Shown here one piece after another: positions 10,759 through 29,090 of a stretch of 32,000 nucleotides of DNA. The notes below the pieces were generated by a model that saw only the letters and a program-made list of their open reading frames with translations, did no database searches and was not told where the DNA came from. The number at the start of each line of letters is the position of its first letter. Position 1 is the first letter of the stretch. The translations under genes were made by a program, and so were the position numbers. Source of the DNA: Candidatus Pacearchaeota archaeon (GTDB lineage: Archaea > Nanobdellota > Nanobdellia > Pacearchaeales > GW2011-AR1); the NCBI GenBank assembly GCA_016186425.1, contig JACPLR010000018.1, forward strand, positions 1 through 32,000. The letters are read 5' to 3'.

Positions 10759-10893
10759 CTTTTTATTTACTTTTATTCCGCTTAACTATTAATACTTTTT
10801 TAATACTTTATTTATACTAATATTAGTATTTAAATGTTATTATTGGCATGAATATGCCTTAATCCCAAGTTAATTAAAACCTCTTAATCCATA

Positions 10894-11151
10894 AAATATT
10901 AATATATCAAGCGAATAAATCATGTAAATTTTTCTCCTATTAAAAGGAAAATTTGATAAAGAAAATTATTACATTTAAAGGAGATGTCATAAGAAGAACC
11001 TTGGTTCTTTTTATAAAGGAAAGTTTGATAAATGGTTGCTGGATGCATAGAAACCCGCTGGAGGTTTTTATATTGGTTGCCCTTATTATTGCAGTATTTT
11101 CAAAACTATTCTGAAATCATACTATACCTTTGCCTAATTTAGATGAGAAAG
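10894..11151 (+). repeat. Intergenic palindromic element, array-bearing form
   Basis: 10894-11071 is identical to 26027-26204 except one base; right part matches other copies (GCAGTATTTTCAAAA...CTGAAATCATAC...CTTTGCCTAATTTA). Confidence 0.85.
10977..11014 (+). repeat. 38-bp hairpin unit, copy 1
   Basis: AAAGGAGATGTCATAAGAAGAACCTTGGTTCTTTTTAT, identical at 18630, 21031 and 26110. Confidence 0.95.
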
Positions 11152-11219
11152 TGTCTGATACTTCATTAATCATTAATTTCAATAATCTAATATTCTGTAA
11201 GTCACATACTTTAAACTAA

Positions 11220-13960: not shown

Positions 13961-13998
13961 AAAAGAAAAACTAATAAAGACAACTAATGTTTTCCTTT

Positions 13999-15237
13999 TT
14001 AAATTATCTCTCCAAAACCTATTAATCTCCAATGCCCCTTTATATTTCTGGCAATTCCTACATTATCTCCCTTGAACGGAACAACTGGAATATTCAACTC
14101 TAAATCCAAAATGCCCTCTTTAATTGTCTTTATTCTTCCGACACTTATTGAAGTATTAATGCTTAACATAAGCATTTCGCTTGGCTTGAAATCTTCAACA
14201 ACAAATTGCTCTTCCATTCCAAGAACCTGCTTAAAATGCTGGGCCCTAATTTTTATATTATATGATATTACTGGCAATTTATTATTCAATCCGGCAACAC
14301 AACCAGAAAGATTGTCTGCTTTGGTTAAAGTCATATCAAGCTCTGTTTCAATTGCCAAGCTTCCTCCAGGTCCTGCTGCACTAACTCTGTGATCTCCTCT
14401 TTGCAAAGAAACAATTTTTGTTTTAACAGTTTCATAAATTCTCTGATTTTTTTCAATAACATTTAATCCTGGCTTAATTTCAATTTCATCTCCCACTTTC
14501 AAAATTCCTTTCATCAAACTCCCACCTAAAACCCCTCCGTGCAATTCAGAAGCAGGAGTTCCTGGTTTGTTAATGTCAAAGCTTCTTGCAACAACAAAAA
14601 CAGGATCAGAATTAATTTCTCTCTTTGGTACTTCAATTTCAGCAAGATACTTATAAACTTTATCAATATTTATTTTCTGTTGTGCAGAAACTGGAATTAT
14701 TTCCGAGTTTTCAGCAATAGTGCCTTTAACAAATTCTTTTATTTCTTTATAATTTTTTATTGCTTGTTCTTTTGAAACAAGATCTATCTTGTTCTGGATA
14801 ATTGCAATCTTTTTAACATTTTTTGCTTGAAGGGCAACTAAATGCTCTCGTGTTTGTGGCTTAATTCCTTCATTTGCAGCCACAACAAGAAGCGCAACAT
14901 CAACTATTTCAGCTCCAGATAACATTGTTGCCATCAGCATCTCATGTCCTGGCACATCAACAAAAGTTATGTATCTATAAGGCTCGCCATTTTCAACCTC
15001 GTAGTTATTCCCAGACTTCCTTAAGATTATGTCAGAATAACCAAGTTTTATTGTAATTCCTCTTTTCAATTCTTCGGAATGTGTATCAGTAAACTTCCCG
15101 CTAAGCGCATAAAGAAGCGTTGTCTTGCCATGATCAATATGCCCCGCCATGCCGACATTTAATATCGGCAGTTTTGAAATATCAATACCGTTATTTGCTT
15201 TATTATCTTTATGATTATTTTTATTATCCTTTTCCAT
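13999..15237 (-). CDS. eif2g: Translation initiation factor aIF2 subunit gamma
   Basis: NVGMAGHIDHGKTT, RGITIKLGY, VDVPGHE, NKIDLV GTPase motifs and eIF2-gamma C-terminal domains. Confidence 0.97.
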   Translation of the reverse strand: MEKDNKNNHKDNKANNGIDISKLPILNVGMAGHIDHGKTTLLYALSGKFTDTHSEELKRGITIKLGYSDIILRKSGNNYEVENGEPYRYITFVDVPGHEMLMATMLSGAEIVDVALLVVAANEGIKPQTREHLVALQAKNVKKIAIIQNKIDLVSKEQAIKNYKEIKEFVKGTIAENSEIIPVSAQQKINIDKVYKYLAEIEVPKREINSDPVFVVARSFDINKPGTPASELHGGVLGGSLMKGILKVGDEIEIKPGLNVIEKNQRIYETVKTKIVSLQRGDHRVSAAGPGGSLAIETELDMTLTKADNLSGCVAGLNNKLPVISYNIKIRAQHFKQVLGMEEQFVVEDFKPSEMLMLSINTSISVGRIKTIKEGILDLELNIPVVPFKGDNVGIARNIKGHWRLIGFGEII

Positions 15238-18556: not shown

Positions 18557-18708
18557 TGCCCCCACCGGGATTCGAACCCGGGTCTAAGCCTTTCTTCTTT
18601 TTTCCATTATAGGGAAATGTCCTCTCTCAAAAGGAGATGTCATAAGAAGAACCTTGGTTCTTTTTATCAACGAAAGGGCTTGATGCTTGGCCTCTACACC
18701 ATAGGGGC
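18557..18708 (-). tRNA. tRNA-Glu(TTC) with ~79-nt intron at 37/38 (about 18592-18670)
   Basis: Acceptor GCCCCTA/TGGGGGC, anticodon stem AAGCC/GGCTT with loop CTTTCG|A, T-arm CCGGG-TTCGAAT-CCCGG. Confidence 0.92.
18630..18667 (+). repeat. 38-bp hairpin unit inside the tRNA-Glu intron (opposite strand to tRNA)
   Basis: AAAGGAGATGTCATAAGAAGAACCTTGGTTCTTTTTAT, exact match to intergenic copies. Confidence 0.95.
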
Positions 18709-19250: not shown

Positions 19251-19436
19251 TTAAAAGGAGAGTTCGTAAAGGGAACCATTGCTATTAAAAGGAAAGTTTG
19301 ATAAAGAAAACCTTTGGCACTTAAAAGGAAAGTTTGATAAAGAAAACCTTTGGCACTTAAAAGGAAAGTTTGATAAAGAAAACCATTGGTTGTCTTTATA
19401 GGAGATGTCATAAGAAGAACCATTGGTTCTTTTTAT
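19251..19436 (+). repeat. Tandem array of 5 hairpin units abutting the 3' end of tRNA-Ile
   Basis: Core unit TTAAAAGGAAAGTTTGATAAAGAAAACCTTTGGCAC (period 36), then a full-hairpin unit ending GGTTGTCTTTAT and a variant of the 38-bp unit. Confidence 0.9.
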
Positions 19437-19439
19437 AAA

Positions 19440-19575
19440 TGAGCCTGCGCGGATTTGAACCGCGGACCCCCGCCTCTCTTAGATTTTCTTTTCTATGAAA
19501 GGAGCATTCCAGTGTTAACACGCTGAAACACACTCATATAAGAGCGGTGCTCTAACCAGGCTGAGCTACAGGCTC
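19440..19575 (-). tRNA. tRNA-Ile(TAT) with ~61-nt intron at 37/38 (about 19476-19536)
   Basis: Acceptor GAGCCTG/CAGGCTC, D-arm GCTCAGCCTGGTTAGAGC, anticodon stem CCGCT/GGCGG with loop CTTATA, T-arm CGCGG-TTCAAAT-CCGCG. Confidence 0.88.
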
Positions 19576-20971: not shown

Positions 20972-21135
20972 ATCATGCTAAATTTTTCCTATTAAAAGGA
21001 ATGTTTGATAAAGAAAAACATTGGCACTTAAAAGGAGATGTCATAAGAAGAACCTTGGTTCTTTTTATTATTTACTATTGTAAGGATTCATAATATATTT
21101 TAAAAATAATGTAATATCTTTGCCTTATTTACTAG
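20972..21135 (+). repeat. Intergenic palindromic element, array-bearing form
   Basis: TCATGCTAAATTTTTCCTATTAAAAGGAATGTTTGATAAAG..., 38-bp unit at 21031-21068, terminal AATATCTTTGCCTTATTTA. Confidence 0.8.
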
Positions 21136-25942: not shown

Positions 25943-26026
25943 TCTCAGTTTAAAATTAATAACTATTTATTATTTTCCAAAAAACAACAACAGGCCATAT
26001 AAAAAAGTTAAGACTATTTAATCAAT

Positions 26027-26373
26027 AAATATTAATATATCAAGCGAATAAATCATGTAAATTTTTCTCCTATTAAAAGGAAAATTTGATAAAGAAAATT
26101 ATTACATTTAAAGGAGATGTCATAAGAAGAACCTTGGTTCTTTTTATAAAGGAAAGTTTGATAAGTGGTTGCTGGATGCATAGAAACCCGCTGGAGGTTT
26201 TTATTTTCATAAAGAAAACCATTGGCATCTAAAAGGAAGGGTTGATAAGGGTAAACCATTGGCATCTAAAAGGAAGGGTTGATAAGGGTAAACCATTGGT
26301 TGCCCTTATTATTGCAGTATTTTCAAAATATTTCTGAAATCATACAATATCCTTGCCTTATTTTAATGTGAAA
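26027..26373 (+). repeat. Intergenic palindromic element, longest array-bearing form
   Basis: Shares 178 bp with 10894-11071, then extra 37-bp units AAAAGGAAGGGTTGATAAGGGTAAACCATTGGCATCT and terminal GGTTGCCCTTATT. Confidence 0.88.
26110..26147 (+). repeat. 38-bp hairpin unit, copy 4
   Basis: Exact match to 10977, 18630 and 21031 copies. Confidence 0.95.
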
Positions 26374-26511
26374 GTTGCTTAAATCTTATCAGTTAATCTA
26401 AAGAGATTATTATCCACTTTAAAGAGACTTCACTAAATTTAAAAGCAGGGGAAAGATAATAATTAATTTTTTCCCATTGGAAAAACTTAAATAAAAGAGA
26501 ATATTGATAAA

Positions 26512-27597
26512 ATGATAAAAAAGGGGGCGGGAATGGATCAGAAAAAAGAGATGCAGACAACTATAATTGAAATAAAGAATAATCAGCAGGCTACAAAAGA
26601 GGAATTTCTCAGTATATTAAGGCTTGTTGCTCCAGGAACAAATTTAAGAGCAGCACTTAACGGAATTGTTGAGGCAAAAAAGGGCGGCTTAATGATTGTT
26701 GAAAATGAAATTGTGCATCAAGTTCTGGATGGAGGATTTAAAGTTAACTGCAGGTTCACTCCTCAAAGGCTTATAGAGCTTGCAAAAATGGACGGGGCAA
26801 TAGTTCTATCAAATGATATGAAAAGAATAACTTATGCAAATGTAACTCTTGCTCCAGACAGCAGAATACCAACCAAAGAAACCGGAACTCGTCACAAAGC
26901 AGCTGAAAGAACTGCAAAAATGACAGGAACACTTGCAATAGCTGTTTCTGAAAGAAAAAACGAGATAAGCCTCTACTATAAGGACATCAAATACCATGTA
27001 AGAAGCACTGCAGAAATATTACGAAGAGCTACTGAAACACTTCAGATACTTGAAAAGCAAAGAGAATTATTTGATATTAATCTGACGAAGCTCAACCAAA
27101 TGGAGTTAAATAATGACCTAAGCTTAAGGCAGGCGTGTAAGGTAATACAAAGAGGGAAAGCAATGGAAAAAATTCTTGAATCCCAGGAAAAAACGCTGAT
27201 AGAGCTTGGAAACGAAGCAATACCATTGAAATTAAGAATTAAGGAACTAATGAAAGATGTTGAAAGAGAAATAGATTTTGTAATTAAAGAATACACAAAG
27301 CTTAATTTAAAAAAATCAGAAAATATTCTTGAAAGCCTGTCTTACGAAGAGCTTTTGGATACAGAAAATATAATGATTGCCCTGGCCCATAAAGAAGAGG
27401 CGGGTCTTGACTCGATAAAGGGCTGGAGATTGCTGTCAAAAACAAGTTTGGAAGAAAAAGATATAGCAAATCTAGTATCAAAATTCCAGAGTTTAAATAA
27501 TATAATTAACGCAGAGTTGCATGAACATAAACAAATCCTTGGTGATGAAAAAGCAGGAACATTTGCCAAAGAACTTCAGAGATTCAGGAATTTGTAA
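26512..27597 (+). CDS. disA: DisA-type diadenylate cyclase (c-di-AMP synthase) with linker and C-terminal HhH-like region
   Basis: LRLVAPGTNLRAALNGI, LAKMDGAIVLSNDMKRITYANV, SRIPTKETGTRHKAAERTAKMTG; C-terminal GWRLLSKTSLEEKDIANLVSKFQSLNNII...ELQRF as in DisA. Confidence 0.92.
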   Translation: MIKKGAGMDQKKEMQTTIIEIKNNQQATKEEFLSILRLVAPGTNLRAALNGIVEAKKGGLMIVENEIVHQVLDGGFKVNCRFTPQRLIELAKMDGAIVLSNDMKRITYANVTLAPDSRIPTKETGTRHKAAERTAKMTGTLAIAVSERKNEISLYYKDIKYHVRSTAEILRRATETLQILEKQRELFDINLTKLNQMELNNDLSLRQACKVIQRGKAMEKILESQEKTLIELGNEAIPLKLRIKELMKDVEREIDFVIKEYTKLNLKKSENILESLSYEELLDTENIMIALAHKEEAGLDSIKGWRLLSKTSLEEKDIANLVSKFQSLNNIINAELHEHKQILGDEKAGTFAKELQRFRNL

Positions 27598-27837: not shown

Positions 27838-28046
27838 AATCCAGCTTAAAAATTATCTAAAGATATTGCAGTAATTTAAAAATCATTTAAAGGAGGGGTT
27901 GATAAGGGTGAACCTTTAAATCATTTTTAAAAATCATTTAAAGGAGGGGTTGATAAGGGTGAACCTTTAAATCATTTATGATTTTTAAATCCATTAGGAT
28001 TTTGGTGCCCTTTATACTATATTCTTGCCTAACTTTTATGAGAAAG
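27838..28046 (+). repeat. Intergenic palindromic element, 51-bp unit form
   Basis: Two 51-bp units TTTAAAGGAGGGGTTGATAAGGGTGAACCTTTAAATCATTTTTAAAAATCA, terminal TATTCTTGCCTAACTTTTATGAGAAAG. Confidence 0.75.
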
Positions 28047-28880: not shown

Positions 28881-29090
28881 AATCGGGCATAAATTTTCCT
28901 TTAAAAAGGAAAGTTTGATAAAGAAAACCTTGGTTCATCTAAAAGGAAAGTTTGATAAAGAAAACCTTGGTTCATCTAAAAGGAAAGTTTGATAAAGAAA
29001 ACCATTGGTTGTCTTTATTATTTATTATATATTTTCAAAAAGTTCTTAAATCTCCACAATATCTTTCCCTATCTTATATGGGTAAATTTC
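28881..29090 (+). repeat. Intergenic palindromic element, array-bearing form (3 units)
   Basis: Three AAAAGGAAAGTTTGATAAAGAAAACC units at 37-bp spacing (28902-29019), last ends with full hairpin ATTGGTTGTCTTTATT; right end CAATATCTTTCCCTATCTTATATGGGTAAA. Confidence 0.85.

Follow-up and report, generated by a model that had tools for sequence, protein, structure and literature searches.

The analysed stretch of DNA, in the following called the window, comprises positions 1 to 32,000 of contig JACPLR010000018.1 from a Candidatus Pacearchaeota archaeon (assembly GCA_016186425.1). On its minus strand, at 18557-18708, lies a tRNA-Glu(TTC) gene, which was recognised by the Rfam tRNA model (cmscan, 41.9 bits) and for which reading of the sequence gave the anticodon TTC and an intron at the canonical position 37/38. 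The intron holds a type A 38-bp hairpin unit at 18630-18667 on the plus strand, with a tail (18630-18641) and a hairpin (18642-18667); the unit is wholly intronic, lies on the strand opposite to the tRNA and is 3 nt away from the 5' splice site. The first-pass annotation had reported four identical 38-mers, one of them entirely within this intron and antisense to the tRNA. Both statements were confirmed: exact matches start at 10977, 18630, 21031 and 26110, all on the plus strand (0 expected in shuffled sequences), and the Rfam model and direct reading place the 18630 copy in the intron, antisense to the tRNA.

The other three identical copies are intergenic. Those at 10977-11014 (+) and 26110-26147 (+) are located in a 203-bp intergenic block which is duplicated at 10872-11074 and 26005-26207 (94% identity) and in which the unit is accompanied by array fragments and by another repeat, TGGTTGCTGGATGCATAGAAACCCGCTGGAGGTTTTTAT; these blocks are larger mosaic intergenic repeats. 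The copy at 21031-21068 (+) is the final unit of a two-unit array. A fifth near-copy, at 19400-19436, is the last member of a tandem array of related 36-bp units (19251-19436, +) and stops 3 nt short of the 3' end of the following tRNA gene (19440-19575, -; Rfam tRNA model, 53.1 bits), the intron of which has no unit. Related arrays of 36-37 bp units were found at 19251-19436, 26216-26309 and 28904-29018. One terminal unit, at 26270-26309 (+), is of the subtype GGGTTG/GGGTAAACC-GGTTGCCC and has compensated arms, and that of the array 28904-29018 is of the subtype AAGTTTG (28980-29018, +). A second repeated module, TATTTAGTATTGTAATGATTCAAGA..TTTTGAAAATACTGCAATATCTTTGCCTAATTT, is found downstream of many intergenic arrays, e.g. 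at 11072-11152, 26295-26375 and 21083-21130. Further relatives of the unit are two 51-bp repeats with a divergent unit AAAGGAGGGGTTGATAAGGGTGAACC at 27875-27977 (+, partly read by eye) and a degenerate inverted copy at 13966-14003 (-), which overlaps the stop codon of an eIF2-gamma-like gene (13999-15237). The window also encodes, at 26512-27597, a DisA-type diadenylate cyclase with a DisA linker in this Pacearchaeota genome.

Units are 38-40 nt long. They comprise a purine-rich tail of 12 nt (AAAGGAGATGTC or variants of it; AAAGGA(G/A)...) and, after it, a hairpin with a stem of about 12 bp and a loop of 2-4 nt. The hairpin follows the pattern RTAA....AACC-loop-GGTT....TTAY and makes the blunt end of the unit, which reads TTTTTAT. 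Arrays of 34-37 bp units finish with one unit carrying the right arm. Type A units have TGTC as the tag before the stem and one subtype has CGTC, but many others have GTTC, CTTC, TTTC, TTTG or GTTG. Subtypes vary in both hairpin arms together. In a seed alignment of 22 sequences, 95.5% of the stem cells were paired and 22 double-sided changes were counted versus 8.1 +/- 2.1 in shuffled alignments, a figure inflated by the relatedness of the sequences. The feet RTAA and TTAY covary as well: among 149 unique units the first stem pair is A-T in 137 and GC in 11, and the second is T-A in 146. In some copies the tail side carries another small hairpin, CTCCTT..AAGGAG; about one sixth of the solitary units have a tail-side pyrimidine stretch able to form a second hairpin (24/138 versus 3/138 control windows, p 2e-5). 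At two loci of the sister species G001 (L269, C43:17488; L232, C15:25172), the loop is lengthened by some 35-42 nt by a partly palindromic insert, with the stem kept.

The 868-kb genome containing the window (G000, a draft that is 88% complete) has 17 exact copies of the 38-mer, 26 if up to three mismatches are allowed (exact copies included), and about 115 family units when searched with a covariance model at E<=1e-4. Within the genus, the seven genomes have 115 (G000), 112 (G001), 1, 13, 6, 12 and 4 units, i.e. the unit is amplified in two genomes and has few copies in the five other congeners; only these two genomes are copy-rich, and all assemblies are drafts. Any copy at all was found in 18 of 55 genomes, and 37 of the 55 relatives are without the family. 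When 85,462 species were searched for the exact core, matches came only from Pacearchaeota records and from one record titled 'Archaeon BMS3Abin17'. IMG/VR searched for the exact core gave 0 matches, and a virus origin of the unit was dropped. Nearly all units are situated in non-coding DNA, most of them intergenic, and the interiors of clear genes are avoided.

The positions of the units relative to genes are strongly asymmetric. In G000 and G001 together, 77 of the 225 units have their right (blunt) end no more than 8 nt ahead of an ATG or at -4..+3 of a stop codon, compared with 4 for the left end (Fisher p about 1e-21); in 23 of the 35 start-codon cases, the distance of the blunt end is 0 or 1 nt. 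In other genomes, the blunt end was located 0-3 nt from tRNA 5' ends (L027, L166, L168, L175, L177, L179, L180, L191, L194), adjoining tRNA 3' ends (L172, L188) and 11 nt from a 16S 3' end (L162). A promoter, with a BRE/TATA-like AAAGGA...GATAA and a transcription start at the blunt end, is disfavoured, since the foot varies from ATAA to GTAA in step with its partner, which becomes TTAC, so that the pair is kept and the TATA-like word is lost. Leaderless tRNAs without RNase P, as in Nanoarchaeum, were rejected, as RNase P RNA is present in most relatives.

Such a distribution could also be expected of a host RNA element that is kept for its function and spread by gene conversion, with the hairpin marking the edges of RNAs. 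It would serve as a leader hairpin bridging an AAGGAG Shine-Dalgarno-like tail to the start codon, as a trailer hairpin after stop codons, as a processing hairpin at tRNA ends and as the inner helix of intron splice motifs. The exact abutment to start and stop codons, to tRNA 5' and 3' ends and to 5' splice junctions, together with the unit near a 16S 3' end, is in favour of this, and a folded hairpin after the AAGGAG tail would give a normal SD-AUG distance. We return to this possibility below, where the strand preference and the histories of individual sites are described.

The tRNA-Glu copy is one of 18 intron units found, which come from at least nine tRNA/lineage sets. G000 has four (Glu, C6:18630; Gly, C19:16163; Tyr, C19:26323; Lys, C23:57403) and G001 five (Glu, Lys or its like, Gly, Arg and Trp); the remaining ones are Glu in the congener G006 (L183), Glu at L049, Ile and Gly at L045, Asp at L044, Tyr at L174 and L190, and L196 and L199 in G005. 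Intron placement was mostly done by tools, but by reading or alignment for the Tyr loci and the Gly locus of L045, and isotypes were derived from the anticodons. All 18 units are antisense to the tRNA (p about 0.004 when nine tRNA/lineage sets are counted, several loci being orthologous). In about 13 introns measured by reading, the unit begins 0-4 nt after the canonical 5' splice site, where no common sequence is present, and between different tRNAs only the hairpin part of the introns is common.

The tRNA-Glu(TTC) intron contains a unit in G000, G001, G006 and another Pacearchaeota bin (L049). The four units all differ in sequence but share their orientation, and that of G001 has an insert in the hairpin loop. 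The congener G002 has a tRNA-Glu(TTC) intron without a unit and in G005 the gene is intronless; in the wider family or order, the intron is unit-free in G020 and missing in G012 and G044. Because presence, absence and subtype vary in this way among relatives, the intron unit is neither universal nor the result of a single recent event. The first-pass annotation had taken the unit to be recently copied or maintained by conversion; a recent single origin of the tRNA-Glu copy is not supported, given the same-orientation units of other subtypes in the orthologous introns of two congeners and the other bin. It had also named an outcome that would speak against a mobile unit, namely the same sequence in this intron of all relatives and no intergenic copies; here the comparison was divided, since several relatives do have a unit in the intron, but intergenic copies abound and other relatives are unit-free or intronless.

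The tRNA-Glu exons are 100% identical to those of the orthologue in G001; the gene is therefore not pseudogene-like and, judged from its sequence, is probably functional. The unit leaves the UUUC/GAAG helix and the 3' AAA bulge of the splice motif intact, both of which were read by eye in three tRNA-Glu introns. That the locus is a pseudogene, as the first-pass annotation had considered, or an assembly artefact has a negligible chance of being correct. The genome is a draft and repeats can misassemble; however, in many independent assemblies the units lie within contigs and have distinct flanks, the exons are identical between species, and the orthologous intron units refute an artefact in practice.

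We also considered the proposal of the first-pass annotation that tRNA introns are a special safe harbour of a mobile hairpin. The 18 antisense units at the 5' splice side agree with it, as does the presence or absence of the unit in the tRNA-Tyr intron and, together with the whole intron, in tRNA-Glu. The unit is indeed tolerated in many introns, but these are not privileged: most units are intergenic, the blunt end abuts boundaries generally, intron units make up only 4 of about 118 in G000, and in the other genomes units at tRNA 5' ends are as common as intron units (9 and 9). The safe-harbour idea gains only partial support, because introns are one of several boundary-abutting landing places of the unit; a special role of introns is quite improbable.

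Site histories were compared between G000 and G001 at about 85% DNA identity. Three empty sites were identified: a unit of about 49 nt with both hairpins at G001 C43:71881 is missing from G000, a unit just before an ATG at G000 C21:40648 is missing from G001, and the tRNA-Tyr intron with the unit at G000 C19:26323 has a sister-species counterpart without it; with two species, gain and precise loss are not separable at a single site. There was no clear target motif or target duplication; the empty sites are clean, although their exact edges are ambiguous, and the flank preference is weak. Elsewhere, the two species have different unit subtypes at the same junction (S11 stop codon, C23:45169, tRNA-Glu and tRNA-Lys). 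At the S11 stop codon the junction is identical, and in the tRNA-Glu intron of two species it is preserved to within 2-3 nt; that it persists despite the differing subtypes is a further point for a functional host RNA. The shared junctions suggest that copies have converted one another or that a single site has been used repeatedly.

The stem wobbles bear on which strand is folded. Among unique arm pairs, 63 wobbles are G.T on the plus strand of the unit and 12 are A.C; the ratio is 22:0 where the plus strand is in sense and 41:4 where the minus strand is in sense, counts that come from copies of shared ancestry and are not independent, so that their significance is overstated. Because the stem is kept on the plus strand whatever the local transcript, folding of this strand during copying fits better than a local RNA function, and the hairpin seems to be kept by its copying. 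A host RNA element would not be expected to favour plus-strand wobbles (41:4) even where the minus strand is transcribed, as in introns, at stop codons and at tRNA 3' ends; moreover, orthologous genes do without the unit at the empty sites, and the family is absent from 37 of the 55 relatives. We consider such an element unlikely.

Our preferred explanation, to which we assign a probability of about 0.58, regards the unit as one copy of a REP-like mobile hairpin element that is non-autonomous and specific to Pacearchaeota. Dispersal, lineage-specific amplification, stem covariation, empty sites, end asymmetry and one-strand wobbles in every context were all observed. The small mobile hairpin that the first-pass annotation had postulated thus gains support from the copy number, the covarying stem, the sister-species empty sites and the presence in many introns. 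The element would move or be copied as a folded single (plus) strand by an enzyme supplied in trans, and insertions would persist where the blunt hairpin end meets a gene or functional RNA at its edge; an intron unit on the strand opposite to the tRNA would leave with the spliced-out intron. Counting against a mobile element are that no mobilising gene was found linked to the units, that no clear target motif or target duplication was seen, that only two, draft, genomes are copy-rich, and that orthologous sites have different subtypes at the same junction, for which copies must have been converted or have inserted more than once at the same point.

A special case of the preferred explanation is a miniature IS200/IS605-type element (PATE) served in trans by a Y1 transposase, in which RTAA would be the guide pairing with TTAY at the right cleavage site. 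Covarying RTAA/TTAY feet, a single-strand hairpin with one strand favoured and the second hairpin in a subset of units (24/138 versus 3/138) are consistent with this, and Y1 transposase genes or fragments are present in all seven genomes of the genus. Their presence does not follow the unit copy number, however, and a fixed target tetranucleotide in the left flank could not be established. In G000, the only Y1 transposase found (C19:42477) has its own distinct ends and no unit nearby, although in this 88% complete genome another copy could be missing. A covariance-model search around twelve Y1 loci found no units, and a Y1 transposase as linked mobiliser was rejected on this ground. We regard the special case as unlikely. 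The complete IS200-type element of G000 itself (L295 1340-1920, C19) is bounded by hairpin ends of its own and has a Y1 transposase in an open frame of 137 aa.

Six of the seven genomes of the genus have reverse transcriptase genes; that of G000 (486 aa, RVT_1) is located at L332 (C19:45232-45873). In G004 (L186), the unit at C35:16510 lies some 290 bp from a reverse transcriptase gene, and an RT-16 RNA (RF03019, 66.5 bits) is also found there. It is conceivable, if very doubtful, that insertion of the element takes place at the termini of processed RNAs via an RNA or cDNA step, in which a reverse transcriptase, for example, joins the folded strand of the element to mRNAs, tRNAs or rRNA at the 5' or 3' end, or to a cut tRNA 5' exon. 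This would explain the blunt end at start and stop codons, tRNA ends and 5' splice sites without a shared junction sequence.

With 38-40 nt, about 115 copies and a nearly exclusive location in non-coding DNA, the unit corresponds to the definition of REPs (imperfect palindromes of 20-40 bp, high copy number, mostly extragenic). The CGTC-tagged REP superfamily (Di Nocera et al. 2013, PMC3733652) comprises high-copy 20-40 bp palindromes with an unpaired 5' tag on one side, CGTC (or TGTC/CCTC), directly before a stem of 8-9 bp with a 4-5 nt loop and a CCA tail. The units resemble them in size, in the one-sided tag (TGTC/CGTC in part of the units), in the first two stem pairs A-T and T-A, in their closeness to ORF 3' ends and in that no dedicated transposase is known; they also supply stop codons, as is reported of GTAG REPs (PMC3733652). 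Unlike CGTC REPs, they are archaeal (Pacearchaeota), have a 12-bp stem, a smaller loop, no CCA after TTAY and a variable tag (GTTC, CTTC, TTTG, GTTG), form tandem head-to-tail arrays, lie flush with start codons and tRNA ends and reside in tRNA introns. GTAG REPs/REPINs with RAYT transposases (PMC2817692, PMC3116915) likewise are short, non-autonomous, directional hairpins amplified in some lineages, but the units listed here have no GTAG before the stem and no linked RAYT. The unit works like a REP and does not fit a named REP family.

A large-scale transposition of tRNA introns has been described in Thermoproteales (Fujishima et al. 2010, reviewed in PMC4090602). Similar sequences occur in introns of different archaeal tRNAs and are gained or lost between close species there too, but it is the intron that recurs, whereas here it is a hairpin repeat living mostly outside introns. 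Rickettsia palindromic elements, to the extent that PMC3733652 cites them, are also palindromes proliferating in a small genome, but lie within ORFs, while the units avoid the interior of clear genes. In other archaea, palindromes termed REPs have been described (PMC12306157) in a text that names neither DPANN lineages nor introns, and a search of open-licence papers turned up neither a description of this repeat nor one of REPs within tRNA introns of archaea. A REP-like hairpin family is documented here in a DPANN archaeon; it shows that a genome-wide repeat can land in archaeal tRNA introns, and it follows a testable rule, i.e. one end at a gene boundary and one strand favoured. This bears on the gain of archaeal tRNA introns and on the way in which very small non-autonomous elements select insertion sites, or survive at them, in compact genomes.

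Outside the genus, an extra conserved motif ATCAGGCGTGACCCTAATTTA is present directly upstream of the unit at L027, L045, L165, L166, L167, L169 and L180, and could belong to a longer ancestral element.
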